Shown here: positions 4,461 to 55,237 of the stretch, piece by piece
Layout of the letters: every line of letters begins with the position of its first letter
Position numbering within the stretch: position 1 is the first letter of the stretch
From: Aurantiochytrium sp. KH105
Taxonomy: Eukaryota > Sar > Bigyra > Thraustochytrida > Thraustochytriidae
Assembly (NCBI GenBank): GCA_003116975.1
Contig: BGKB01000278.1
Span: 62,001-126,000, forward strand
Length of the DNA: 64,000 nt
Direction of reading: 5' to 3'
Made by a program: the position numbers and the translations under genes
The notes under the pieces: generated by a model
What the model saw: the letters and a program-made list of their open reading frames with translations, nothing else
What the model was told of the DNA's origin: nothing
Databases searched by the model: none

Positions 4461-6032
4461 TCACTCCGGAATCTCGTCACTGCTGTTCTCTTCCAGCGTT
4501 CTAACTCTGTACGCAAAAGACTTGAAGGTTGGCAAGGAGGGACACTCGGTCTTGTCAGAGTGCCCGTCTTTCTTAATGTCATTGGCGAGCTTCTGCAACT
4601 TCTTGCCATACGACTTCCAGTCCTTCTTCTTTTTGTGGAAAATGTTCTCTGCCGGACTTTTGCCGAGATCAAAGATTTTGCGCTTTTGATCCGCGTTGTA
4701 CTTGAAGTCGTTGCACGTGATGGCCAGTTGGGCCCGGCTTCCCTCGATGACGAGCGGCTGGCCCTCGCGCACATTTGTAGCAGAGTCGATGTCGCACATG
4801 GTCTGCCACAGACTGAAGCTATCGCGGCCATCCTCGGCTCCAATTTCTGCACCGGTCATTTCTGCAAAAGTCGCAAAGAGATCAACCTGGCTCACAGCCT
4901 CGGACCACTTGGTGCCTGCCTGAATTCCATTGGGCCAGTGCATGATGAAGGGGACGCGATGGCCACCCTCCCACAGAGTCCTCTTGGCGCCAGCGAAGAT
5001 GGACGTGGATTCAAGACCAGTCGCGCGAAATTTGCCGGGCCCCTCGGGACCGTTGTCACTCGAGTAGATGATCAGCGTGTCATTGTAGACGCCAAGATCC
5101 TGAAGTTTCTGCATGATCTCGCCCAGACGAAAGTCAGTTTCTTCGAGGAAGTCGGCGTATGCACCGTAGTTGTTCGTGCCCGCAAAATCCGGATGCGGTA
5201 CGTGCGGAAGGTGGGGCGCAGTGACCGGGATGTAGATGAAAAAAGGTTGCTCTGGCCGGGTCGTAACGTGCGTCTCGATCATCTGCATCGCCTCTGTCGT
5301 GATGTTGGACATGCAGTATTCTGCGCGAAAGGTGCTGCCGACACTAGTCTTTCCATTGGTGGTGTAGGGAAAACGCAAGAGATAGGTCTTGCAGAAATTT
5401 CTTTCGTCAATGACGGGCGGGCAAGAGAGTTGCTTGTTGGAAACCTTTTTGGTGTACACGGAGGGTTTCTCCGTAAAGGTGCGGTTCCGAATGTACGCCA
5501 ATTTCCCGTAGTTCATTGAGGCGGGGATGCCAAAGAACTCGTCAAAGCCGACGTCTGCCGGCCCACCGTAGATCTCGCCTTCGAGGTCTTCGGGGATGTC
5601 CATGCCGAGATGCCATTTGCCAGACATGTAGGTCCGGTATCCGACGCTCTTGAGGAGAGAGGCCAGCGTTGCATAGCCAGGGACCATGGGCGTGGCTGAT
5701 GCGCCAATGGCGCCTCCGCCTCCCCTTTCCCGAAAGGCATATACGCCGGTGAGAATAGCGAAGCGCGACGGCGTGCACACGACTGCTGCCGAGTGGCCAT
5801 TGGTGTACTCGAGGCCTCCGTCTGCGAGCGCTTCGAGGTTGGGCATGCTGAGAATCTCCGGGTTATACTTTTGCCGGTCGCCATAGCCCTGATCGTCCGT
5901 GTAAAAGATGACTACGTTCGGCTTGGCAACCTCGTCGCAGGCTGCCTCTCCATGCGTTGCGTCGAGGGCCAGGGCCGCGACCACTAGCACAAGACCGCGC
6001 GCCAGCACTGCGCGCATGCTGGAGCTGCGCAT
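4461..6032 (-). CDS. Secreted sulfatase (arylsulfatase family), copy 1
   Basis: Type I sulfatase of 523 residues that hydrolyses sulfate esters. The sulfatase signature C-T-P-S-R-x-A-x-L-T-G starts at Cys86, which is predicted to become the catalytic formylglycine. The N-terminal metal-binding DD pair is in FYTDDQGYGD (about 46-47), and SGKWHLG (about 137-143) is the second signature. Residues 1-30 form a signal peptide ending HGEA, so the enzyme is secreted or lysosomal. In-frame Met at 6032 and 6017 both give a usable signal. The gene is intronless and has a close paralogue at 8889-10454 on the same strand, which implies tandem duplication. The substrate is unknown, though sulfated polysaccharides are likely for a marine osmotroph (inference). 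Confidence 0.94.
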   Translation of the reverse strand: MRSSSMRAVLARGLVLVVAALALDATHGEAACDEVAKPNVVIFYTDDQGYGDRQKYNPEILSMPNLEALADGGLEYTNGHSAAVVCTPSRFAILTGVYAFRERGGGGAIGASATPMVPGYATLASLLKSVGYRTYMSGKWHLGMDIPEDLEGEIYGGPADVGFDEFFGIPASMNYGKLAYIRNRTFTEKPSVYTKKVSNKQLSCPPVIDERNFCKTYLLRFPYTTNGKTSVGSTFRAEYCMSNITTEAMQMIETHVTTRPEQPFFIYIPVTAPHLPHVPHPDFAGTNNYGAYADFLEETDFRLGEIMQKLQDLGVYNDTLIIYSSDNGPEGPGKFRATGLESTSIFAGAKRTLWEGGHRVPFIMHWPNGIQAGTKWSEAVSQVDLFATFAEMTGAEIGAEDGRDSFSLWQTMCDIDSATNVREGQPLVIEGSRAQLAITCNDFKYNADQKRKIFDLGKSPAENIFHKKKKDWKSYGKKLQKLANDIKKDGHSDKTECPSLPTFKSFAYRVRTLEENSSDEIPE

Positions 6033-8888: not shown

Positions 8889-10454
8889 TCAGAGGTTTCT
8901 GTACGCATCCGTGTCAGGACAAAGCGTACTCTCGCTATGACCATTCCTCTGGACTTCCTTCCAAATGTTCTTCATGGCCTTGCCAAACTTGCGACGCTTG
9001 CCCCGGATTTTTGCGCTCTTGTTCTCCTCGGGATGCTCTTGCAAATCGTACAGGCGACTCTTCTTCTTGGAGTTGAACTTGATATCATCGCAGACCACCG
9101 CGAGCTTGGCCTTGTCATCCTCAATTACCAGAGGCTGGCCCTCCCTCACATTGCTTGCAGACGCAATGTCGCACATCGGCTGCCAAATGCTGAAACTGTC
9201 GCGACCATCCTCGTCCGATGCTAGCGTAGCGCCCGTCATTTCCGCAAGGGTTGCAAAGAGATCGACTTGGCTCACAGCCTCAGTCCAGGTCGTGCCCGCC
9301 TCAATGCCATCCGGCCATTGCATAATGAACGGGACGCGGTGTCCACCTTCCCAGAGGTCTCGTTTCTCGCCTTTGTAAATGGACGTCGACAAAAGTCCTG
9401 TCTTGACAAAGTCTTTCTTCTCCTCAGGCCCATTGTCGCTTGTGTATATCACAAGCGTCTCGTCCTGGATACCAAGGTCTTGGAGCGCTTGCAGAACCTG
9501 CCCAAGACGAAAGTCAATCTCTTCCAAAAAGTCTGCGTAGGCACCGTACTCGTTCTTGCCCGCAAAGTCCGGGTGTGGCGCATGCGGAAGGTGAGGCGCG
9601 GTCACCGACAGGTACATGAAAAATGGCTGATCGCTGTACGACGTCATGTGGCCTTGAATCATCCGGATGGCCTCATAGGTAAAGTTTGAAAGGCAATAGT
9701 CTGCCCGAAAAGAAGCCCCCACCGAAATCGGATGGTCTTTACTGCTGTCGGAATAAGGAAACTCCAAGCTAAACGTCTTGCAAAACTTGCCCCTCTTCTT
9801 CGTAGGGCACGAGCTTTGCGCATAGAGGTCTTTTGCCGTGTACACGTCGGGAGGCTCGGTGAAAGTACTGTCACGAATGTACGCCAGGTTTCCGTAGTTC
9901 ATCGAAGCTGGAATGCCAAAGAACTCGTCGAAACCAACGTCTACCGGTCCTCCATTTATCTCGCCGTTCTCCTTGTCCTCGGGGATATCCATGCCAAGAT
10001 GCCACTTGCCAGACATGTACGTGCGGTATCCCACGGTCTTGAGAAGAGAGGCCAATGTTGCGTGACCTGGGACCATGGGTGTCGCGTCAGACTCCACCGC
10101 TCCACCGCTCGGGTTTTGCCGGAAAGCGTAGACTCCCGTCAGAATCGCAAAACGCGAGGGCGTGCAGACGGTGGCTGCAGAGTGACCATTCGTGAACTCG
10201 AGGCCGTTTTCTGCCAGAGTCTCGAGGTTTGGCATACTCAGGATGTCTCCATTGTACTTTTCACGGTCACCGAAGCCTTGGTCGTCGGTGTAGAAGATGA
10301 GCACATTTGGCTTGACCGTCTCGCTGCACGCGACCGCCCCAGCAACATCGCAGGCGTGGTGGCAAAGGAGAAGCGCTGCAGTCAGGATTGCTGCGCGGCT
10401 GTGCCCGCCATGGGCGCGCCCTCGCCCGTCGTTCTTGCGCACGGAGCCTGTCAT
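8889..10454 (-). CDS. Secreted sulfatase (arylsulfatase family), copy 2
   Basis: Type I sulfatase of 521 residues and a close paralogue of the 4461-6032 gene. Cys97 lies in C-T-P-S-R-F-A-I-L-T-G and is the expected formylglycine position. The metal site FYTDDQGFGD and the segment MSGKWHLGMDIPED are conserved between the copies. The N-terminus is basic (MTGSVRKNDGRG...) followed by a hydrophobic stretch (AAILTAALLLCHH), consistent with a secretory signal or signal anchor. No intron is seen. The two copies differ most in the signal region and the lysine-rich C-terminus, so they may act on different substrates (inference). A TGC-repeat tract lies 55 nt upstream of the start. Confidence 0.94.
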   Translation of the reverse strand: MTGSVRKNDGRGRAHGGHSRAAILTAALLLCHHACDVAGAVACSETVKPNVLIFYTDDQGFGDREKYNGDILSMPNLETLAENGLEFTNGHSAATVCTPSRFAILTGVYAFRQNPSGGAVESDATPMVPGHATLASLLKTVGYRTYMSGKWHLGMDIPEDKENGEINGGPVDVGFDEFFGIPASMNYGNLAYIRDSTFTEPPDVYTAKDLYAQSSCPTKKRGKFCKTFSLEFPYSDSSKDHPISVGASFRADYCLSNFTYEAIRMIQGHMTSYSDQPFFMYLSVTAPHLPHAPHPDFAGKNEYGAYADFLEEIDFRLGQVLQALQDLGIQDETLVIYTSDNGPEEKKDFVKTGLLSTSIYKGEKRDLWEGGHRVPFIMQWPDGIEAGTTWTEAVSQVDLFATLAEMTGATLASDEDGRDSFSIWQPMCDIASASNVREGQPLVIEDDKAKLAVVCDDIKFNSKKKSRLYDLQEHPEENKSAKIRGKRRKFGKAMKNIWKEVQRNGHSESTLCPDTDAYRNL

Positions 10455-35905: not shown

Positions 35906-38900
35906 ATGCGTCATTGCAAGCTGGGTCTGGTGCTGGCGACGCTGGTCAGCTTGGCTGCGGTAGCTCTGATGGAAGCAGCCACGAGCTCGTGCGCAAGGCT
36001 CAACCGCTTCGACGGCGGCGAGGACGACGCGCAGTGCGGATCGTGCTTCCCGGAGCACGTGAGCGGGTCCGACGCCGGGCCATGCCGCTTCAGAGACTTT
36101 GGCCTCGTCCCGCGGATGGCGGAAGGGCCTGCGGTCGCGGAAGATGACATTTTCAGCACTCGCTCCATCGCTCGCTTCGTCGACCTCAACAACGACGGCC
36201 TTCTCGACATGGTCGCTGCCACTTATTCCTCATCAAAGTTTTCCTATTATGAAAACGTCGGCACAGCCTCCATGCCCTCATTTGAGAAGACGACCAGCAA
36301 CTCGCCCGTGCAAGACTTCCCGAGTAACATCAATTTCGACGCTCAGGTTGCCTTCGGAGACTTCACCGCCGATGGCTTCCCTGACGCCATCGTCTTCAGT
36401 GCATTTACAGTCTCAGATTCCTCAAGCGCAGACGATCAGAAGAAGGTCTCTCTCTTTGTCTGGAGCGAAACCGAAAATAAGCTCGTCGAGGCGCCGAGTG
36501 CGGACATTCACCCTCTTCAGGATCTCGACGGGTACAATATTCGCGCCATGCACTTGGTGGATCTCAACGGAGATGGGAAACTCGACGTTCTCGCGGCGAC
36601 CGGCGGAAACGAAGTCCTTTTTCTCGAGAATACTGGCTCCAGCGAGTCCCCCACGTGGACCAAATCGACGCTTCAATTCGACGTCTCCGCGTTCAGCTCC
36701 AAAATCCAAGACATTGGCACAAGACCTCGGCAGCTTCCCACCGGAGACCGTGTTCAAGACATTTTTGTCACAGATTATTCCAACAACCTGTACGTACTCA
36801 TGAACGAGGGCACTGCGGACGCCCCAGCCTTTGCCAAAGCAAGGACCGCGGATAGTGAAGTCTTTTCGCTCGTCGACGACTGGCTTGAAAACCCGAACGT
36901 GAACCGCAATCTCCTCGTGACATCGATTGCATCCGTCAACCTCTTTGGTAAAGACACGGAGGATTTCGTGGTGGTGCAGGCCCAGACAACACCTCTGATT
37001 CGAGTTCTTTCGCAAGTCCCGAGAGAGGTATCGTGGACACTTGTGAACGGCGACGCTGACCCCTTTGCCAACCTCTCTGGTCTTGTCTACGTGGCACCTA
37101 CTTTCTTCGACATGGATGGCGATGGTGATCTTGACCTTATTGCGGGTCAGGTAACTCGTGCCTCCACCGGAGACATCTTTACGTTCAAGTACTTCCGCAA
37201 CGACTGGCCGTCCGGGTTTGTGGAGCAAAGCAATGAGGCTAGAAACCCAATTGCCAACTTGACACTCGGTGAAGACGTCTTCTACGAAGAAGGCGCACAA
37301 GCAAGCTTCTTCGTCAGCGAGACGTCCAACGAAACATACATGGTTCTTTCCGACACAAACGCAAGATCCTCGCTCCTGTATAAGCGACAGGGCGAGACAT
37401 TTGTGAAGCTCGAGCAAATGGCGTTCCCTAAATTGGGGATCAGCACTGCGCGGAGTATCCAGTTCGTCAAGTTCAACGCATCCGGACCGCTGCAGGCCTA
37501 TACCATCGGGACAGGAAATACGCAGCACAATAACCTTCAGGTCAAAGCATACGAGTTCGTTAGCGAGGACGCCGATCCTATGTTCCGTGAGCTGGACGCG
37601 CCGGCTTTCGAGTTCACAGATGATATCATGGACCAACTCGAGCCGCTTGTACGTGATGGCGGATCTTGGAACGTCAATATTGGTCTTTACCCGACGCTGT
37701 CATTGGGTGACATGGACAACGATGGCGACGTCGACGTGTTTTTCTCCGTCAACCCCAACTCGATCTTCATGTGGGAGAACCGAGGTACTCCTGAAACCCC
37801 CGACTTCGGCGATAGCTCATACCTCACGGAGATGAGCCTTCCCAAAGAAGACGGGACGGATTGGTCAAGTGACGAACCCATGGTCGCTGTGGCCGACGTG
37901 GATGGTGATGGCGATCTGGACCTTGTCACTGTCGACCAAGGAGGATCTTATCTCTACTATGTCAGCACGCAGAGCGACTGCGCTTCTCAGACACCCGCTT
38001 CGCTGAACCGCGGCGAATGCGCCCAAGGCAGAGTCACCACGGAGGACATCTTCACGGACGTCACAAACCAGAAGGAACTGGAGGATGCATCGTATTCCCC
38101 GGGTCTCTGGTCTTGCACTTCTAATTTTATTGGCAACTCCTGCGAACGCTGCGCTGTAGGCATGTACGGACCGGACTGCAGCCAGAGGTGCCCCACTGGA
38201 AGCACCACCAACGTTACACTTGGCTGGGGCGTGTATCCGAACTTCGCCACCATCGAGGACTGCCAATGTTCAGGCGCATTGGTGCGCCAGGGGGACGAGT
38301 GCACCTGCCCGCCAGGCTATGAGTTTAGCAATGCGAGTGGTACCGATACCTGTGTCAAGTGCGGGCGTGGAACGTACAAGAGCGGATATGGTTTGGAGCC
38401 GTGCGAAGAATGTCCTTATAGTGACTACTCTGACACCATGGAAATGCAGAATGGCATCAATAAAACGATCACGGGCGCCGACAATGTTTCTCTCTGCTCG
38501 TGCCGTGAAAGCTTCGACCTGGACAACGAGACCAACACATGTTTATGTATGCCTGGTCAGTCACTTGATGTTGATAGTCAACTTTGCCTCCCGTGCGCTC
38601 TGGGGTCATATACGAACGGACTGAACCTTGCAGAGTCATGCGAGCTCTGTGCCGAGGGCCTTGATACGTTTCAAGAGGGGAGCACCGAATGTGAAGACCC
38701 ATTGTGCGATCTTGGCCAAGAACGAATCAACAGTACCTGTCAAAGATGCGAGACGGGAACCTATCGCGGCGAGACAGAACGCTACTGCATCCCCTGTCCC
38801 TCGCAAAGATCTAACACGAATGGTGAAGGTAGCACTTCTATCAACGACTGTCTCGCTAATGTAGGGTCTTTCTCTCTCGACGAGAACACTGTAGTATCAT

Positions 38901-39808
38901 GCACGGCGACCGACAAGCTCTTCGCTGGTGCTGACTGCACCGCGAAAGGCCTGACCGTGGAGACCTTGGTGATCAGGGAGCACTTTTGGCGCATCGCTGC
39001 GACAAGCATCGACCTTCGCGAGTGTCCCTCCAAGGCATACTGCGTGCCCATGAATGAGACCGAAGATCATAGAAGATTGCAGAGTCTAGACTTTGGTGAC
39101 CAGTACTGCTCAGAGCATCATACGGGCACGCTCTGCGCGAGCTGTGTGGAGGGCTATGCCAAGAACGAGGCTCTACAATGTGCAGCATGCGATGGTCCGC
39201 GCGAAGCGGCTGACAAAGCAAGATTGGCATTATGGATTCTCCTGGCCGTTTTCATCACTATGGCGCCGGCTTTTCTCGTTGTCCTTTCGACTGCCTCTGC
39301 GACAAAGAACAAGCAAAGGAGGAGAAGAAAGAAGGGCAAGTTCAACACCAATCTGACAACGTGCTTTCTGCAGATTTCGGAGTCCTTCACTCAAGCATTC
39401 AGCTCATGCCCTGGTTCGAAGTTCGTCAGATGCTGGTGGGACGCGATGAACCACAAAACGTCCATTTTTCTCAAGTTTGCACAGATCGTGGTTGAAGTGA
39501 GCGCGATCGTGGGCATCATAGGCGCCGGCGGATCGACGGCAGACTTCCTGACAAACATGAATCTCGGCCAGCTACTTAAGGTCTTCCCATTGGGCTGTGT
39601 CATCACGGTAGATTTGTACACAACCATGCTCGTCTCCCCCATGTGGCCGTTCGCGATGGCTTTGCTCGTCGGTCTTACCGTGGCTCTGCGTCGATATTGC
39701 GGCGTCAACCAAGAGAGTCGCAATTGGTGTATCCACAGAGATTCTGGCCTTTATCTATCCTGGTGTCTCGTCCACAATCCTCTCTGTCTTTGTGATGGAC
39801 AATGTTAA
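35906..39808 (+). CDS. FG-GAP repeat, cysteine-rich, multi-TM receptor-like protein (N-terminal part)
   Basis: The frame codes 1300 residues from ATG 35906. A signal peptide (MRHCKLGLVLATLVSLAAVALMEA) is followed by at least six FG-GAP/VCBS units with Ca-binding Asp runs (DLNNDGLLD, DLNGDGKLD, DMDGDGDLD, DMDNDGDVD, DVDGDGDLD). A large cysteine-rich GCC2/GCC3-like region (about 690-1095, e.g. CVKCGRGTYKSG) and several TM segments start at LALWILLAVFITMAPAFL. The tail RNWCIHRDSG...CDGQC is aberrant. The continuation of the family's TM domain is found one frame over from about 39705, so this gene is broken by a 1-nt shift. The architecture is common in stramenopiles and the channel or receptor role is unproven. 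Confidence 0.82.
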   Translation: MRHCKLGLVLATLVSLAAVALMEAATSSCARLNRFDGGEDDAQCGSCFPEHVSGSDAGPCRFRDFGLVPRMAEGPAVAEDDIFSTRSIARFVDLNNDGLLDMVAATYSSSKFSYYENVGTASMPSFEKTTSNSPVQDFPSNINFDAQVAFGDFTADGFPDAIVFSAFTVSDSSSADDQKKVSLFVWSETENKLVEAPSADIHPLQDLDGYNIRAMHLVDLNGDGKLDVLAATGGNEVLFLENTGSSESPTWTKSTLQFDVSAFSSKIQDIGTRPRQLPTGDRVQDIFVTDYSNNLYVLMNEGTADAPAFAKARTADSEVFSLVDDWLENPNVNRNLLVTSIASVNLFGKDTEDFVVVQAQTTPLIRVLSQVPREVSWTLVNGDADPFANLSGLVYVAPTFFDMDGDGDLDLIAGQVTRASTGDIFTFKYFRNDWPSGFVEQSNEARNPIANLTLGEDVFYEEGAQASFFVSETSNETYMVLSDTNARSSLLYKRQGETFVKLEQMAFPKLGISTARSIQFVKFNASGPLQAYTIGTGNTQHNNLQVKAYEFVSEDADPMFRELDAPAFEFTDDIMDQLEPLVRDGGSWNVNIGLYPTLSLGDMDNDGDVDVFFSVNPNSIFMWENRGTPETPDFGDSSYLTEMSLPKEDGTDWSSDEPMVAVADVDGDGDLDLVTVDQGGSYLYYVSTQSDCASQTPASLNRGECAQGRVTTEDIFTDVTNQKELEDASYSPGLWSCTSNFIGNSCERCAVGMYGPDCSQRCPTGSTTNVTLGWGVYPNFATIEDCQCSGALVRQGDECTCPPGYEFSNASGTDTCVKCGRGTYKSGYGLEPCEECPYSDYSDTMEMQNGINKTITGADNVSLCSCRESFDLDNETNTCLCMPGQSLDVDSQLCLPCALGSYTNGLNLAESCELCAEGLDTFQEGSTECEDPLCDLGQERINSTCQRCETGTYRGETERYCIPCPSQRSNTNGEGSTSINDCLANVGSFSLDENTVVSCTATDKLFAGADCTAKGLTVETLVIREHFWRIAATSIDLRECPSKAYCVPMNETEDHRRLQSLDFGDQYCSEHHTGTLCASCVEGYAKNEALQCAACDGPREAADKARLALWILLAVFITMAPAFLVVLSTASATKNKQRRRRKKGKFNTNLTTCFLQISESFTQAFSSCPGSKFVRCWWDAMNHKTSIFLKFAQIVVEVSAIVGIIGAGGSTADFLTNMNLGQLLKVFPLGCVITVDLYTTMLVSPMWPFAMALLVGLTVALRRYCGVNQESRNWCIHRDSGLYLSWCLVHNPLCLCDGQC

Positions 39809-40850
39809 TCGCGAGCAGGGTGATGAGAATCCGTTTCGACCTTTGTTTCGGGACCCGACGATTGATTTTGACGATCCCAAAAGCAAGTATTGGCGTATTT
39901 ATGCAGGTGTCATGGTCGCGGTGTATCCGATTGGTGTCCTGTTGCTCTTTATCATTGGCTTTTTCTTCAAGCACAGACACAGCGTTGAATGTCATGGCGC
40001 GAAGTCGGTTCTGGTTCAAGCTGTTGCGCATCTTGAACGCCCGTACAGGGACGGCTATGGATGGTATGCCTGTCTGGAGCTGGTCCGACGTTTGGCTTTG
40101 ACGTCGGGCTTTCTTCTCGTGCAGATGATCAGCTTTGAGGATGCTGCGAGTTTCTTCATAGCGTGCAACATCGTATTTATCACTGCTATCGCGTCAATCT
40201 TTCCGTACCGTGTTCGAAATGACAACCTTTTTGCAATACTCTCACAGCTTCTCCTGTGCATGTTTGCTTTGGGCGTTCAGCGCGTGGGTCAAATTCGTGT
40301 TGTGGACAAAAGCACTGCGCCATTTGTAGCCCGTGCAATCGGGCTCGAGGTATTCTTCTTTTTTGGCACTTCCTTGCATCAAGCCATTTACATGGATGTG
40401 GAAACCTTTTCTCCTCGAGACGACAACGACGACTTTCTTGCGAATGGAAGTGACAATAATAGGGAAGAAGAGGAGCAGGCCTCGAGAGGATATGGCGGAT
40501 TTGGGTTTCCAACCAGCCTAATCTCCGAGGAACTCGAGCTCACGCGTACTGACGATGCTTTTCGCACACCGCCAAATAGCCCGCGCAACAAGTCTTCTGT
40601 TGACGATGTCGATGGCGCTGTCATCAACATTGACGTCGAGCCTGCCAATCCTGAGCGCACCAGCCGTCTGCCTGCGACGTTGTCGATAACGAAAGCTTCC
40701 GAACTCACAGGGAGTGAGGAAACTGATAGCTCAGGGAATCAACCACTGTCGCGCTTTACTAGTTTTGTCGCCGCTGCGAACAGCTCGGGCGGGAACGGCG
40801 ACTCTGCCTCCAAAGTCAATGGCGAAGTTTTCAAGATGACTCGTACTTGA
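39705..40850 (+). CDS. C-terminal part of the same receptor-like protein in a shifted frame
   Basis: From about 39705 the reading frame one base ahead codes IGVSTEILAFIYPGVSSTI and then DNVNREQGDENPFRPLF. YWRIYAGVMVAVYPIG, RPYRDGYGWYACLELVRR and three more hydrophobic helices follow. These are conserved blocks of the TRP-like TM domain that ends such FG-GAP/GCC2-GCC3 proteins. The part ends with a Ser/Asp-rich cytosolic tail. There is no reasonable start codon for a separate gene: the first ATG lies inside a TM segment at about 39795. No GT-AG intron of realistic length (1 mod 3) can join the parts. Confidence 0.8.
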   Translation, partial: STKRVAIGVSTEILAFIYPGVSSTILSVFVMDNVNREQGDENPFRPLFRDPTIDFDDPKSKYWRIYAGVMVAVYPIGVLLLFIIGFFFKHRHSVECHGAKSVLVQAVAHLERPYRDGYGWYACLELVRRLALTSGFLLVQMISFEDAASFFIACNIVFITAIASIFPYRVRNDNLFAILSQLLLCMFALGVQRVGQIRVVDKSTAPFVARAIGLEVFFFFGTSLHQAIYMDVETFSPRDDNDDFLANGSDNNREEEEQASRGYGGFGFPTSLISEELELTRTDDAFRTPPNSPRNKSSVDDVDGAVINIDVEPANPERTSRLPATLSITKASELTGSEETDSSGNQPLSRFTSFVAAANSSGGNGDSASKVNGEVFKMTRT

Positions 40851-47653: not shown

Positions 47654-50037
47654 ATGTCGTCGCCGCGATGGCATGATGGCGCAGGAAAGGTGCCGCCCTT
47701 GAACCTGGGGTCGGTGCCGCTGTTGCCCGGTTTCCGGACGCATCGCGATGTGGACAGACTCAAGCCGTGGCATGGAAAACCCACCATGGTGTGCACGGAA
47801 CGCAAGGAGCGCGAAAATGTCCCCGAGACGGACATTGTTGCGCACGTGCACGGAACGTATTACGCAGCGCCACCCAGCGACGCTTCCAGCAACCAAGCTC
47901 AGGATGCAGCGGCTCGTTTCCAGACTTCGCAGCGTCTCGCACATGCAAGGCCGACAACGCCCAAGGTCAACAAGCGTATTCCGCATGGCGCGCGGACGAA
48001 ATGGCTCGTGTACGACCGCGAAGTTCTTCGGTTCTTCATGTTTTTCCAGGAGGACCTCCCGGAAGTCGACGAAGGACATCGTATCCGTCGCGTTACGCTC
48101 TTGTATCATCGTTCCAATGATGCAATTGAGATGTTCGAGCCAAAGGTAGAAAACTCAGGTCTTCAGCAGGGCGCCTTTCTTGCCAAGACACCGATCAGCA
48201 AACTTGCGGGAGGGCGGGGCAAAACGCACTTGGAGCTCAAGGATTTTGTGGTCGGTCAGACCGTGTCTCTCTTCGGACGTGCGTACACCATCACGGATTG
48301 CGATCCCAAGACACGACGTTTCTTTCGCGATGAGCTTTCTTTCGAACAGCCCGAAGCTATTCCGGTCCCAGAGGACCCCGTCGTCACGCGGTCGCAGGCC
48401 CTTGCGAACAAGGCCGCAGAGGCTGCTGCCGACGCTAGTGCCGCGGCGCAGTTGAACCACACCAAGGATCTGCGTCAATTCCTCAAGTGGGGCAACAAGG
48501 CACTGCTCTTTGATGTGCTCTGGGACGATAGTCACCGGGAGGGCGGCGACAAGCGCCGGTTCCAGCTTGCCGTCTTCTTGGCGGATTTGACGATTGAAAT
48601 CCGGGAGGTCTTCAAGCCGAATAGCGGACGCGAGGGCTTTTCCAAGTTTCTTTCCCGAGCCAAGGTCTTCAATCCGCTCACAAAGAAACCATATACGCTC
48701 GAGGACTTTCGTTGCGGGCAGACGCTGGAGATCAACAAGCGCGACTTTCTTCTCGTCTCGTGCGACGCATACACGCACAAGTTTTACAAGACGAGGCTAG
48801 GAATCGATCAAGTGACTGTGGAGATCCCTGAGGAGGTCCGTGTTTTGCCCAAGATGCCCTTGCCCCCGTACAATGGCTATGGTACCGAGGAGGACTCCTT
48901 GCAGTCTTTTTACCATCTTGTGCCACGCCAAATCAGCAAGAACATGGCGCGCGTGTACAAGTACGGCGATTCATGCTTCCACATTCGGTGCTGTCTCGTG
49001 ACACAGATTCCTCAGGAGCTCGGTCGCATCTTTGATCTCAAGTTCCAACTTGCTGAGCGTACGATGAGCCTCTATGAGCCCGTGCAGCGGAACTCGGGTA
49101 TCATCGGGGGCCAATTTCTGGAGAATGGAACGTACACCAACGCTGCGACGGGCAAGCCCTTTCATGAGGATGATCTTGGCGCAGCGCTTGACGTGGCCAT
49201 GCAAAAGCGCAGAGGCGAGCTTCCTGCGAGCGAGCGGGGCGATGTTCTGGAAATCATGTCGCGCCAATATCAGGTTCTAAGCGCGGATGACACGACGCAT
49301 CAGTTTTTTGGAATCCCATCGCCTCTTCCGCCAAAGAAGAGCTCCGTGGATCCGGCGGAGCACATCTTCCGCATGATTGTCCATCAGCTGCTGAGCCGCA
49401 AGCTCAACATTCGTGCCATGTTCGAGCGCGCGGACAAAGATGGATCCAAGAGTATCGCTGCACACGAGTTTAAGGATATGCTTGAAGATGCTGGCGTGCA
49501 AATCAATCCCGGTGATCTCGCTGTTGTCATGTCCAAATTTTCTTCTGGCGCGGTTATCTTTTACCAAGACTGGTGTGACGCACTTTCGCAGCACTGGCAG
49601 CCGCCTCCTCGCGAGTCAAAGTCTCGCGTGGAGGAACTGCAAATGCGTCTGCTCGAAAAGTTTCGTCATTCCAAGACGAACCTGCGTTCGCTCTTTCGGC
49701 AGTGCGACAAGGACTCGAACGGTACGCTGTCTTTTGACGAGTTCCAGAAACTCGTCAACAATTTCCTACTCATGGATGTCTCGGACACGGAGCTTGCAGC
49801 GATCATGCGGCTCTACGATACGGAGCAGACGGGCGTTATCGACTATCATAGCTTTTGCAACACCGTGTACGAGCTTGACTTTAGCGGTGACCTGGACAAG
49901 GACAGGCACACTGTTGACCTGTGCGACCAGGAGCTCTCCAACGATGAATACTTGGCCATTGCACGCCAGCGTGCGGCCGTTGATAAGCAAACTGCGTCGG
50001 GCAAGGGGCAGCAATTGCAAGAGCAGCAACAAGATCA

Positions 50038-50074
<37 letters not shown>

Positions 50075-50107
50075 GAGGGTGCGTCGCAAGTGTATGAAGA
50101 CAAGTAG
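47654..50107 (+). CDS. EFHC/Rib72-type axonemal protein (three DM10 domains, EF-hands)
   Basis: Protein of 817 residues. It begins with the family's PPLNLGSVPLLPGF motif. Three DM10 domains follow (about 112-225, 272-375, 429-555; e.g. KWLVYDREVLRFFMFFQED, NKALLFDVLWDDS, ARVYKYGDSCFHIRC). EF-hands lie at about 590-745 with loops DKDGSKSIAAHEF, DKDSNGTLSFDEF and DTEQTGVIDYHSF. This is the EFHC1/EFHC2 plan, known in cilia as Rib72, a microtubule inner protein of doublet A-tubules. The C-terminus ends in polyglutamine (about 795-808) from CAG repeats. It implies a flagellated life stage. The start MSSPRWHDG was chosen because the upstream frame is made only of the GGCA repeat. Confidence 0.93.
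50039..50071 (+). repeat. CAG repeat encoding polyglutamine
   Basis: About eleven CAG units in frame at the C-terminus of the EFHC/Rib72 gene. Confidence 0.9.
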
Positions 50108-50265: not shown

Positions 50266-52803
50266 TTATTCTACAGTCTGGATAGGTGTCAGCGCGCGAT
50301 CGCGGCCTTGAATAAAGCACAAAAGCGTGAGCTGGACATCCTTTTCGCCTTCATTGTTCCACTCGAGCTCGTACCATCCAGGATGGGGCAAAGCAGGTGT
50401 GTCAAGAATGACATCATTGGACGTTGTTGCCACAGTGGCGAATAACAGGCGACCCTCTTCGCCCTCACTTGGCTCGTGAGGGGCTCTCGGGTCATCGTCA
50501 TCAAGCAACAAGTTGGAGTCCGAGGGAAGAGGTCCGCGAAGGACAAAGTCGACCTTGGTGTTGGCGCCATACTCTTCGTTTCCGCGAAATGAAGAGCCAG
50601 ACGGCGGGGCAATCGTAAAGTTGATATTGAGCCAGGCAGCCTGCGCAGCGCAGACATACTGAAGGTGAGTTGAGCCCTCGCTCAAAGTAAGGTCCTCGGA
50701 CACGTAGTCGCTCGCCACACCATTGCCATCGTCTGACAAGTCGGACCAGGCCGCTCCGGCGCTCGGTGTCGACTCGGGTAGCGCATCTGCAACTTGTGCT
50801 TTGGACGCATTAGGTACTGACGACAAGGATGCCGATGACGACGAATTAGCCACGGGGCGATTGTCCCGTTGGTCGGCGATCCACGAGGGCCCAGCCTCGC
50901 GTTCACCGCTTTGCGGGTTCTTGTGTTCTGCTTCTTCCGGCTCTTCCCGATCACCATCTTCTGGTTCCTTGCCAGGCTCGATGTCGTATCCAGATATGAT
51001 GATGTCACGTTTGTCAACCTTACGGTCTGAAAGATTGGCTTCGCTTGACTCTTTCCTCGAGAGCGCGAGGCCTTCAACAGGAGCGTTGGTTTCCCGCGAA
51101 ATATCGGTGGACTTCTTTTCGCCATCGTCTTGGCTCGTGGATTGACAAAGAGGAGGTTTGGACGCCATCCTAGGCTGATCGGCTTTGGCAAGCTCCTCAA
51201 CGATGGCGGAAGCATTCAGGTCCTCGAGACGAATCGGCGCGTCACCCTCGCGCACAGACGTTCCACGAGCGAGAGACAGGCGTCTTGCGGCGTGTTTCTC
51301 GTGCTTGAGTCTCTCGAGCACCATGATTTTACGGAACTGGTCTGGCTTCAGAGGCTCTTGTACTCCGTTCTTTGTTTCTTCAGCATCTTTGATGGCCGAA
51401 GATCCTTCGGATTCCAGACGGACCATCCGCTTCGAGGAGGACAGCAACCCAGAGCCGCCGCGAGGCGACCGCGAGACGTGCGGTCTGTCATCGAGCGAGC
51501 TCGGACCAAGTACTTCTAGCAACTTTTGTTCGATCGCCGCGGCCGTCGCAGTGCGATCCTGGGCGAGCGGATGCTGGGCCAACGATGCGGATAATGATGA
51601 TGATGATGATGATGATCCCGCTGCCAGCAGTCCAGAGAGGGCCAAGGAGGATCCATTCGAAGGTAAGGACGTGTTCGCTGGAGCAGATGCCGCATCATTT
51701 GCATGACTGGACGACTCTGGCGGAGCAGAAATGGTGGAAAGAATTTTCGACGCGGGCTCCGCAGACGCCACCCGCATGTTGCTCGTGTTGAGTATCTTCT
51801 CGCAGGACAGAGTGGCGCCGGACACGAGTTTGACGGCACGCGCTTGGCCGGCATTCTTGGACGCAAAATCGCCCGGAATGTAGGCGTTGCTCGGACGCTG
51901 ATGTGGCTTTTCGAGCAGACCCATGCGATTGTAGGCGGCAGCAACGAGTTCGGAGCAAAAAACAGACGTGAGGTCCTCTTCATTGTTGTGGCCAAAAAGG
52001 TTGGCAGCCCGAAGCATCTGAAAGATGTTTTGCTCGTACGGTCGGCCCTTCATTTCGGCCACAAACGCATTGAGCGTCTGTGCCATTTCCTTGAGTCGAT
52101 CTGGTGGGAAAACATCCTCGTCGAGATGCAAGTGCCGCACGGCAACAATCCCTTTGTAAGCACCGAGACAGTGGGGCGTGAAACGAAATACCGAGACACC
52201 GGCTGAGTCCGCTTCGAGCGTATGCCATGGTGGCACGCCCGCGGCTGCGCGCGCCTGTTTGAGCTCTGGCGAACAGCACGTTCGATCGTCGCAATCGTCG
52301 CAGAGGACGACGATGCCTAGGTGATCAAAGCCTCCTGATTTGACAAATGCGCGCTGGATCCGGCTCGTGATGCGTTTCGTGCGAAAGAGTACAATATCGC
52401 CTTCCCCCAGATTCTCCAAAGTCTCAAAAAATCCGACTTGCTCGTAGCGTCCAGGGTCGAAAGAGCGCAGAAATCGGAAGAACTTGGTACTTCGAATCCC
52501 GTCGGTTCCCCCTGATCCATGCGTGCGCACGCTCGAGGCGTCCGTGGCGCTCCCGTCCGGCCCGGATGACGACCTTTCCTGTGAGCTCCGGTCCGAGAGA
52601 GACTGCGAACTCGTCCTCCTGTGCAGCAGCTTGGCCTCCTTTTTTGAATCTGCACGCAGGTGCCGCGACGACAATGGCGGCGGCACGGCGGCATCGTCCT
52701 CCGACGCCGTTTCTCCCTCCACCGCCGCCGGCGCCGGCGCGTTGGCGGCCTTCGGGAGGACCAGGACGCGCGTGCCGATGGTGGACCGCCTCGCGCGAAT
52801 CAT
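50266..52803 (-). CDS. Permuted papain-like (YiiX/C92 family) domain protein
   Basis: Protein of 845 residues from ATG at 52803 (MIRARRSTIGTRV). Residues about 130-300 form a NlpC/P60-related, circularly permuted papain fold. GDIVLFRTKRITSRIQRAF leads to the catalytic His in GGFDHLGIVV (about His161), and the nucleophile is Cys283 in SVFCSELVAAAYNRMGL. Both positions and the CSELV motif match the YaeF/YiiX (C92) amidases. The rest is long and disordered (Ser, Glu, Pro), with a C-terminal compact part (GWYELEWNNEGEKDVQLTLLCF) that looks like a beta-sandwich. Substrates of eukaryotic members are unknown: lipid or peptide amides are possible. The frame runs on to 53247 but through a KKER repeat and an unknown base (52917), so it is not used. 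Confidence 0.8.
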   Translation of the reverse strand: MIRARRSTIGTRVLVLPKAANAPAPAAVEGETASEDDAAVPPPLSSRHLRADSKKEAKLLHRRTSSQSLSDRSSQERSSSGPDGSATDASSVRTHGSGGTDGIRSTKFFRFLRSFDPGRYEQVGFFETLENLGEGDIVLFRTKRITSRIQRAFVKSGGFDHLGIVVLCDDCDDRTCCSPELKQARAAAGVPPWHTLEADSAGVSVFRFTPHCLGAYKGIVAVRHLHLDEDVFPPDRLKEMAQTLNAFVAEMKGRPYEQNIFQMLRAANLFGHNNEEDLTSVFCSELVAAAYNRMGLLEKPHQRPSNAYIPGDFASKNAGQARAVKLVSGATLSCEKILNTSNMRVASAEPASKILSTISAPPESSSHANDAASAPANTSLPSNGSSLALSGLLAAGSSSSSSSLSASLAQHPLAQDRTATAAAIEQKLLEVLGPSSLDDRPHVSRSPRGGSGLLSSSKRMVRLESEGSSAIKDAEETKNGVQEPLKPDQFRKIMVLERLKHEKHAARRLSLARGTSVREGDAPIRLEDLNASAIVEELAKADQPRMASKPPLCQSTSQDDGEKKSTDISRETNAPVEGLALSRKESSEANLSDRKVDKRDIIISGYDIEPGKEPEDGDREEPEEAEHKNPQSGEREAGPSWIADQRDNRPVANSSSSASLSSVPNASKAQVADALPESTPSAGAAWSDLSDDGNGVASDYVSEDLTLSEGSTHLQYVCAAQAAWLNINFTIAPPSGSSFRGNEEYGANTKVDFVLRGPLPSDSNLLLDDDDPRAPHEPSEGEEGRLLFATVATTSNDVILDTPALPHPGWYELEWNNEGEKDVQLTLLCFIQGRDRALTPIQTVE

Positions 52804-53098
52804 CTTCTTCGGCCGCGGCGCCTCCTCGTCCGCCTTCTGCGTCTCCGCCGGGCTCTCCGCCGGGCCCCCTGCCTCCCGCTCGCCGCCGGGCGGGCGCGCC
52901 CCGCCGCCGCGGCCCCNCGCCTCGCCGCCTCGCCTCGCCGCCTCGCCTCGCGCGCCCCGCCTCGCGCCGCCTCGCACGCCTCGCCTCGCCTCGCGCGCAG
53001 GCGCGGCCCCTCCGCGCGAGAAGGCTTTTGGCTTTTGGCTTTTGGCCTTTTGCGACTTGTCGTTCGTGCGGCCGGTCGTCGCTCGTCCTCGCTTTCCC

Positions 53099-53158
<60 letters not shown>

Positions 53159-53776
53159 TTGCGCCTTCTATCTTCGCCGAAGGCCTTTCTTTGCCCACCA
53201 TGGCCACTTGCGCCGCGGCGCCGCAAGTGGGCAAAGAAAGGTCGCAAGTGCGCGTTGGCGGCGCCCGCACTCGCTTCGCAAGTCGCCTCACAGGTCGCCT
53301 GTCGGAGGAGGTGCGGGGCGCGCCACTGCGCGCTACGGCGCCCGCTCGACGGCGAACGGGCGCTCGACGCGCGCTCGGGGGCGGCCAGTGGCGACCGGCA
53401 TCATTGACGCGAAGAGCGACCGCAGACCGCGAGCGCGAGGGCGGCATCGAGGGCGGGCGCGGGGAGGAGAGGAGAAGGGAAGAGGCCGACGGCGAGAGAG
53501 AGGTTGTGAGTCTTTCCGTTGGAGGCTAGCAAAAGACGAGAGGCTGCAAGGTGAACGAGTGAGTGAGTGAGTGATTGGGCTGGCGAAAAGAAAAGCGAGA
53601 GCCTCGACTTGCTTACTTGCTCGCTCGCTTGCTCGCTTCTTCGAAGCGAGGTGAAGTCTACGCGCCACGTTGCCTGCTTGCGAGACGAGCTATACATTTA
53701 TCTGAAACGGCAACGTGCTGTGGTTGCCATTTCTTCTTTCTGAACGCAAGGGCAAGGGAAGAAAAAGAAGAAGAAG
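52804..53776. promoter_or_regulatory. Divergent GC-rich region with CTTT array and one N
   Basis: Upstream region of the YiiX-like (-) and EIF1AD-HAD (+) genes. It has GCCTCGCC-rich repeats (52917-52995), an ambiguous base at 52917, a (CTTT)n array (53099-53158), and GCTTGCTCGC repeats (53608-53650). Open frames on both strands are repeat artefacts. Confidence 0.5.
53099..53158. repeat. (CTTT)n microsatellite
   Basis: About 15 CTTT units, ending about 620 nt before the EIF1AD-HAD start and lying about 300 nt upstream of the YiiX-like start. Confidence 0.92.
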
Positions 53777-55237
53777 ATGTCGGGCGCCAAGCGCAGAACC
53801 AAGTACAGGAAACATGTGGAGACCGACATGCTGGAGGGCCTCCCGGAACCTGGAGAAGGCGAGGAAATCGTGCGCGTCGAGGCACTTTGTGGCGGCAACA
53901 TGCTCGAGGTCTTGTCTCCCGACGGGGAGAAGGCACTTTGTCTGCTCCCGGCCAAATTTCGCAAGCTTGTGTGGATCAAGCGCGGAAACTTTCTTATTGC
54001 GAGCAAATCGGACGAAGACTACCTGACAGCGACCGGCGCCAAAGGTAGAGTCAAGTACACAGTCGTGCATATCCTCTTCAAGGACCAGATCAAGCACCTG
54101 CGGCAGGCAGACCTCTGGCCTGTATCCTTCGAAGAGGGCGGCGAAGGAGAGGACGAGGAAGATGAAGAAGAAGGAGATGAAGAAGATGGCGAAGACAACC
54201 ATGGGGACAACGGCGGGGAAGAGGAAGACAGCGATATCGACAGTATGGATGGCATGTTTGTGAACCCGAACCATCGCGCTGCAGCCATGATGGCAGAAAG
54301 CGATTCCGAGTCCGAGACCGAGTCCGAAGACGAAGACGAAGGCGAAGGCGAAGGCAACGAAGACGCGAACGAGGTTGATGGCAATGGCAGCTGCATTGAT
54401 GGTAGAGAGACTGGTGCGACGGCCACGAAAGACAACGCTACCGCGAATGAAGCCCGCAGCGCAGATGCGCGACCCATTAAGGTCCTTTCGTTCGATCTCG
54501 ATGACACCATCTTTGAGTGCGCCCCGGTCCTCACTCGCGCGGCACAAGTCCAGCACGAGTTCTTGGAAGAAAACTTTCCCGAGCTTGCAAAAGCCGTGCC
54601 TCTCGAACATTTCAAGACCCTTTTTCGCGAGGCCCTAGACACGCATGCAGAGAACGCGCACAATCTGACATTTATTCGCAAGCAAGCACTTCGGCGTGCA
54701 GCCGAGATGACGGAGCACGACCCAGAGGAAGTCGTGGAACCCGCCTTTCGCGCTTTCATCGACGCTCGAAATGACGTTGGAAAGCATATTTTCCCGGGAG
54801 TCTTGGAAGCTCTCCGCCGTCTCAAAGAGAAAGGTTACCAAATTGTCTCCCTCACCAATGGAAATTGCGACGTCACCACTGTGCAGGCCTTCATGGAACC
54901 CGAAGCTGTTTTCGAACACTCTGTCACCGCGGAGAGCGCCGGGGCTGCCAAGCCAGAAGCGGCACCGTTTCAAAAGATCATGGAATTGACTGGTGTTTCG
55001 CATCCGTCCGAGGTGCTGCATATTGGTGATAATCTCAACAGCGACGTTGCTGGCGCTCGCGCTTTCGGTATGCGGACGCTCTGGGTCAATCGCCAAGAGG
55101 TCGACAAGGAACACGGCGCTGACGCGGTCTTGCGATGCGTCTCGGATCTCGACGATGCTGTCATTGATGCCTTGCATGCCGGGCTCGAGGATGTTCTTCG
55201 TTCTACCGATCCCCGCAAAGACGCCGCCACGGCGTAA
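53777..55237 (+). CDS. EIF1AD-like protein fused to HAD phosphatase (YigB-like)
   Basis: Protein of 486 residues in one uninterrupted frame. Residues 1-120 are an OB-fold eIF1A-like domain (MSGAKRRTKYRKHV, LPAKFRKLVWIKRGNFLI). An acidic region with the conserved EIF1AD motif MFVNPNHR (160-167) and an S/E-rich tail follows. Such proteins bind ribosomal precursors in pre-40S biogenesis. Residues about 233-475 are a complete HAD hydrolase. The DxD nucleophile is in LSFDLDDTIFE (D240, D242), the Ser/Thr motif is LTNGN, the Lys is in AAKPEAAPF, and GDNLNSDVAGA is the acidic motif. The cap is most like YigB-type FMN/riboflavin-precursor phosphatases. No Met precedes the HAD part closely and no splice sites separate the halves, so a natural fusion is likely. 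Confidence 0.87.
   Translation: MSGAKRRTKYRKHVETDMLEGLPEPGEGEEIVRVEALCGGNMLEVLSPDGEKALCLLPAKFRKLVWIKRGNFLIASKSDEDYLTATGAKGRVKYTVVHILFKDQIKHLRQADLWPVSFEEGGEGEDEEDEEEGDEEDGEDNHGDNGGEEEDSDIDSMDGMFVNPNHRAAAMMAESDSESETESEDEDEGEGEGNEDANEVDGNGSCIDGRETGATATKDNATANEARSADARPIKVLSFDLDDTIFECAPVLTRAAQVQHEFLEENFPELAKAVPLEHFKTLFREALDTHAENAHNLTFIRKQALRRAAEMTEHDPEEVVEPAFRAFIDARNDVGKHIFPGVLEALRRLKEKGYQIVSLTNGNCDVTTVQAFMEPEAVFEHSVTAESAGAAKPEAAPFQKIMELTGVSHPSEVLHIGDNLNSDVAGARAFGMRTLWVNRQEVDKEHGADAVLRCVSDLDDAVIDALHAGLEDVLRSTDPRKDAATA

Follow-up and report, generated by a model that had tools for sequence, protein, structure and literature searches.

The window, by which is meant the whole stretch of 64,000 nucleotides analysed here, is rich in long uninterrupted reading frames. 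At 53777-55237 on the forward strand, translation gives one uninterrupted frame of 486 codons, with the stop codon inside these coordinates, in which an EIF1AD-like half is followed by a HAD phosphatase. When 300 random sequences of 3 kb were generated with the dinucleotide frequencies of the region, none reached a frame of this length, and the longest random ATG frame had 334 codons. The features of the frame are as follows:

53777..55237, +, EIF1AD-HAD fusion open reading frame, 486 aa (translation; same frame in a second copy, 98% protein identity)
53804..54322, +, EIF1AD-like half, aa 10-182, folded domain and acidic tail (phmmer against 6zxf_j)
53858..54058, +, eIF1A-type OB domain, aa 28-94 (Pfam PF01176, 53.2 bits)
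54257..54277, +, FVNPNHR, NTNR-type tail motif, aa 161-167 (alignment to FVNTNRR of human EIF1AD)
54323..54475, +, linker, aa 183-233, initially acidic (span between the human EIF1AD match and the HAD)
54476..55210, +, HAD subfamily IA phosphatase with helical cap, aa 234 to about 470-478 (PF00702, TIGR01549, TIGR01509, fold model, 3vay)
54494..54508, +, HAD motif I, DLDDT, residues 240-244 (sequence and alignment)
54848..54865, +, HAD motif II, SLTNGN, residues 358-363, with T360 (sequence and alignment)
54950..54952, +, HAD motif III lysine, K392 (invariant in a 22-row alignment)
55025..55045, +, HAD motif IV, GDNLNSD, residues 417-423 (G417, D418 and D423 unchanged in all 22 aligned rows)

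The initial annotation had placed both domains in a single 486-codon frame, joined by an acidic, stop-free linker. This was confirmed by translation without a stop and by Pfam matches to both halves; the frame is open throughout the linker, and the acidic tail aligns with that of human EIF1AD.

Several other genes were recognised in the window. Upstream of the fusion on the reverse strand, an 845-aa frame (50266-52803) had no Pfam match at E <= 1e-5, and its N-terminal part (GDIVLFRTKR...DHLGIVV) presumably resembles papain-like NlpC/P60 or YiiX proteins. An EFHC-like gene with three DM10 domains and EF-hands (47654-50107, +) suggests, we assume, that the life cycle includes a flagellated stage. 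The overlapping frames at 35906-39808 and 39795-40850 (+) appear by eye to be one gene for a repeat-rich membrane protein that an intron or frameshift divides, and two similar sulfatase-like genes close to each other on the reverse strand (4461-6032 and 8889-10454) appear, also by eye, to be duplicated.

The EIF1AD half and other eIF1A-type genes

EIF1AD is an ancient eukaryotic factor which binds in the eIF1A site and has been known as a 40S assembly factor only since about 2020. It is described as a late pre-40S component that touches RIO1 (PMC8112863; PMC8354635). In the fusion, the eIF-1a Pfam match at aa 28-94 scores 53.2 bits against a cut-off of 30.2, and the best N-terminal match among PDB sequences is human EIF1AD (6zxf_j, E 1.4e-18). 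This match extends over aa 10-182 of the query and covers residues 6-162 of the 165 of the human chain, the acidic tail included. EIF1AD is nearer than canonical eIF1A, for which the best chain so named (2oqk) gave an E of only 5.6e-6. The conserved surface tryptophan of the OB domain is W66, within KLVWIKRG, and the FVNPNHR of the fusion (FVN-x-N-x-R) aligns with FVNTNRR of human EIF1AD. Both the conservation of this tryptophan in the EIF1AD OB domain and the NTNR motif, defined for EIF1AD of most eukaryotes, are described in PMC6122471. The earlier description of a full eIF1A-like OB fold with an EIF1AD-specific FVNPNHR is therefore upheld by the PF01176 match and the alignment to the human motif. 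An OB domain, an acidic C-terminal tail that contains an NTNR-type motif and a similarity to EIF1AD greater than that to eIF1A were all found, and the N-terminal half is taken to be this organism's EIF1AD as part of the bifunctional-protein explanation set out below, with the confidence given to that explanation as a whole. The fusion shares its OB domain with tryptophan, its acidic tail and its NTNR-type motif with human EIF1AD (6zxf_j, 2dgy), whereas the human chain terminates where the fusion runs on into linker and HAD. Since the human match ends at aa 182, the HAD starts about 50 residues past the human C-terminus.

A search of the 76 Mb genome with PF01176 (E up to 10, 5/5 candidates scored) gave four matches, one pair being eIF1A (C17 and C36) and the other pair the fusion; the C17/C36 gene begins, as we take it, like canonical eIF1A. 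No stand-alone EIF1AD was found with this profile in six unspliced frames of the 76 Mb, a type of genome search that a badly split gene could escape, and a query with the whole fusion protein returned the two fusion copies only. If the PF01176 search is complete, the organism would depend on the fusion for EIF1AD function.

A description of an EIF1AD-HAD fusion was not found in the literature at the level of titles and the opening of abstracts, and the main text of a comparative EIF1AD study (PMC6122471) never mentions a fusion, phosphatase, hydrolase or dehalogenase. Both domains are already known, so that their order in this protein is, as far as these literature searches reach, a new domain architecture.

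The HAD half and its bacterial relatives

The C-terminal half matches the Hydrolase/HAD profile (PF00702) over aa 234-431 with 82.2 bits against a cut-off of 26.4, and it passes the subfamily profiles TIGR01549 (41.2 against 23.3) and TIGR01509 (33.9 against 29.4). With the HAD motifs as generally defined, the catalytic set is complete (D240, D242, T360, K392, D418, D423), where D240 is presumably the nucleophile and D242 the acid/base. The complete HAD domain with four motifs claimed at the outset is thus present, with DLDDT, T360, K392 and GDNLNSD all located. In an alignment of the fusion with 21 bacterial relatives (22 rows; 21 of 26 loci aligned), D240, D242, K392, D418 and D423 are invariant and the motif II residue is Thr or Ser. 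Two positions that are near-invariant in the bacterial relatives are altered in the fusion (F replaces W at 246, and A replaces E at 256), and there is an insert of four residues at about aa 372-375 relative to the aligned relatives.

The AlphaFold2 model gives a confident HAD fold for about aa 231-470, with 19 of 24 ten-residue blocks at a mean pLDDT above 85 and a helical cap following motif I (helices at aa 249-336). The pLDDT of the OB half is mostly below 50 and that of the linker is also low, as is to be expected because the input alignment contained HAD relatives only. The top Foldseek match of the model is 3vay (E 9.1e-16, TM 0.84 by target length), a HAD of Pseudomonas syringae which is also the best C-terminal match among PDB sequences (E 8e-27, aa 234-459); further Foldseek matches include archaeal HADs, human NANP/HDHD4 and YfnB. 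The HAD half is full-length and shares its cap and catalytic residues with the YigB-like gammaproteobacterial HAD IA proteins represented by 3vay, but the aligned relatives are single-domain proteins, and the fusion differs from them in F246, A256 and the four-residue insert.

The label YigB-like proposed in the initial annotation holds as a statement of resemblance, but not at the YigB equivalog cut-off (NF008018), where 225 bits are needed and the HAD half scores 83.1. None of the 25 families listed reached its equivalog cut-off with the HAD half. Six bacterial relatives that were tested also fall under the YigB cut-off, with 110-134 bits, and the HAD half is for these reasons named YigB-like and not YigB. 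The xerC gene, we assume, adjoins yigB in E. coli; no xerC partner was recognised by eye in the two longest frames upstream of each of 16 bacterial relatives, so that the YigB label gains no added support from gene order. Phosphatase activity of the HAD half is predicted from the complete catalytic set, with W246F, E256A and the missed equivalogs counting against it.

The best 25 matches among gammaproteobacterial YigB-like proteins are 34-40% identical to the HAD half. At E <= 1e-15, matches were present in 81 of 274 sampled genomes of Gammaproteobacteria (best 4.8e-36) and in none of 149 genomes of Bacteroidia (best 2.2e-14), 151 of Chloroflexota (best 1.2e-15) or 142 of Alphaproteobacteria (best 7.5e-15). 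Three non-gammaproteobacterial genomes in one set of six gave a best E of 1.2e-11, and in a further set of six, matches at E <= 1e-5 were present in two genomes (best 1.9e-10). This concentration of relatives makes a gammaproteobacterial source of the HAD half likely relative to the Bacteroidia, Chloroflexota and Alphaproteobacteria sampled. A scan of genome contigs gave 31 loci, of which only the best three, gammaproteobacterial by their titles, align well with the greater part of the HAD half (E 1e-26 or better), the remaining 28 being weaker. In a tree of 37 rows of more than 200 aa (the fusion, 26 gammaproteobacterial rows and 10 other loci picked by hand), the HAD half fell into a weakly supported group (84/61), unresolved inside, that also took in the gammaproteobacterial rows and three rows of Chloroflexota on long branches; the tree is weak evidence because the fusion is long-branched and the rows were chosen by their similarity to the query.

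Among the loci collected, one set (L041-L043 and L047-L069) belongs to a common gammaproteobacterial HAD IA group. YigB was the best-scoring family for six tested members, all of which lie far under the YigB cut-off, and no equivalog was reached at E <= 1e-12; NCBIfam seems to offer no curated family for this group specifically. Searches of viral contigs with the HAD half returned no relative. Phage records gave three matches, all weak and confined to the HAD, of which two came from Salmonella records (27% identity). With the EIF1AD half, the viral contigs yielded a single locus (L040), rejected as a chance match: the match falls in a frame of 198 aa on a phage-looking contig, and no eIF1A-like protein was recognised in its first 1,500 bases and frames.

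The second copy and the linker

The organism's own assembly (76.0 Mb, 367 contigs) carries a second copy of the fusion at G000:C95:263918-265369, with a protein identity of 98%. The flanks are collinear, upstream at 96% identity over 8.9 kb to window position 52939 and then in two shorter pieces at 88-89%, and downstream at 94% over 8.8 kb, as far as the window end. From this collinearity of about 9 kb on each side, the two copies are probably alleles or haplotigs. Paired occurrence was also observed for eIF1A, lumazine synthase and several HAD genes. A single ambiguous base (window position 52917) and a CTTT repeat (about 53100-53160) both lie upstream of the fusion gene, and large indels separate the two copies around these positions.

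Between the copies there are 7 synonymous and no amino-acid changes in aa 1-125, and 17 synonymous and no amino-acid changes in aa 229-486. That 24 of 24 changes in the two domains are synonymous has, by site proportions, a chance of about 7e-16 without constraint, and supports purifying selection on both domains. The stretch between them (aa 126-228) has 1 synonymous and 10 amino-acid changes and one in-frame indel of 6 nt; this excess of amino-acid changes (10/11) is not significant, with a chance of 0.36.

The methionines of the window copy are at codons 1, 18, 42, 157, 160, 171, 172, 311 and beyond, and the second copy has the same set with positions moved by two past the indel. Between Met172 and Met311 the frame contains no ATG, which makes an ATG-started separate HAD protein impossible from the linker; Met311, the next after Met172, falls past catalytic motif I. 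The interval 54131-54475 yielded no GTRAG-type intron start. A single transcript would thus span both halves, and a fusion in which an EIF1AD relative and a HAD phosphatase share one frame is supported at both copies.

Proposed function and alternative readings

The reading preferred here, to which we give a probability of about two in three, is one gene for a bifunctional protein in which a pre-40S factor, EIF1AD, and a bacterial-type HAD IA phosphatase sit on a flexible acidic linker. The EIF1AD half would act as a late cytoplasmic pre-40S assembly factor in contact with RIO1, and the HAD would be attached at the natural C-terminus of EIF1AD. The length and variability of the acidic linker suggest a loose tether, on which the two domains would fold and work largely independently. 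The HAD gene would have been captured from bacteria and would now be co-expressed with the assembly factor. Its product would carry out the Mg2+-dependent hydrolysis of a small phosphate ester, with ARAPDP/FMN or a nucleotide-like compound as the leading substrate candidates.

According to PMC12051542, the ARAPDP phosphatases known before 2025 were low-fidelity HAD enzymes that include E. coli YigB, which dephosphorylates ARAPDP and FMN; about 30% of HAD phosphatases accept FMN, and Aquifex has two non-HAD ARAPDP phosphatases. A lumazine synthase gene in the genome indicates a riboflavin pathway, so that an ARAPDP phosphatase should be needed. The genome also holds further HAD genes (at least 16 matches, 16 of 65 candidates having been scored, both fusion copies included), and an FMN/riboflavin-type substrate is for that reason only compatible with the HAD half, not indicated for it.

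The strongest alternative, though an unlikely one, is that one primary product is split into two proteins, either by proteolysis of the linker or by internal initiation at Met171/172. The long acidic linker, with its low model confidence, is probably disordered, and in both copies Met171/172 lie upstream of the HAD; a reading of the linker by eye revealed no cleavage module, which speaks against processing. A precedent for a processed 40S-linked fusion is FUBI-eS30 (FAU), a protein of the 40S maturation pathway likewise made as a natural fusion (PMC8354635). It differs in that a ubiquitin-like domain and a ribosomal protein are joined and cleaved, with no enzyme attached.

Still less likely is that the HAD acts on the pre-40S particle itself as a regulatory phosphatase, whether on a phosphorylated assembly factor, on the phospho-aspartate of RIO1 or on a bound nucleotide. 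To our knowledge, no phosphatase has been described in late 40S maturation. The direct contact of EIF1AD with RIO1 in the late pre-40S particle (PMC8112863) makes it possible that the phosphatase takes part directly in maturing the 40S subunit, as the tether would position the enzyme at RIO1, and neither domain has a single amino-acid change between the copies. Against this, the best HAD profile matches are bacterial small-metabolite enzymes, E. coli YigB uses ARAPDP and FMN (PMC12051542), and a long linker that varies between copies speaks against a fixed geometry. A more specific version, in which a horizontally acquired bacterial HAD was welded to the only EIF1AD found and now dephosphorylates a factor, the RIO1 phospho-aspartate or a nucleotide on the pre-40S particle, is given slighter odds again; if it were true, a phosphatase step would have been added to late 40S maturation. 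The fusion would offer a genetic handle on such questions, since one point change of the HAD nucleophile would separate the role in assembly from that of the phosphatase. Should the enzyme matter on the particle, there would be an enzymatic step at the last 40S checkpoint; if not, the fusion would be a clear case of a bacterial-type metabolic enzyme riding on a housekeeping ribosome factor.

The least probable reading, that two neighbouring genes (EIF1AD, then HAD) were joined in frame by accident or assembly error, could appeal to a purine-rich, low-complexity linker in which an open frame is weak evidence alone (2 and 6 stops occur there in the two remaining forward frames), but it is opposed by the identical join on two contigs of diverged sequence, by a linker indel that keeps the frame, by a distance of only about 50 codons from where the match to human EIF1AD stops to the HAD, and by the start within the EIF1AD tail that an independent, ATG-started HAD would need. 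Assembly error in particular is unlikely because a second contig carries a collinear, diverged copy with that same frame.

Elsewhere in the genome, strong matches to PfaA of the omega-3 PUFA synthase family were observed in two copies (930 bits, model positions 6-1035), in a search in which none of 22 matches reached the full-length cut-off of 1010 bits and which also gives matches below the cut-off in 10 of 14 control genomes. PUFA synthases of this kind are generally a mark of thraustochytrids among eukaryotes, and the PfaA matches, taken with the long uninterrupted frames of the window, point to a thraustochytrid (Labyrinthulomycetes, stramenopiles) as the likely source. The PUFA-synthase-like matches lie head to head in both copies, at G000:C72:305786-314912 and C155:166452-175544, and the thraustochytrid link of PUFA synthases is in agreement with PMC13311796.
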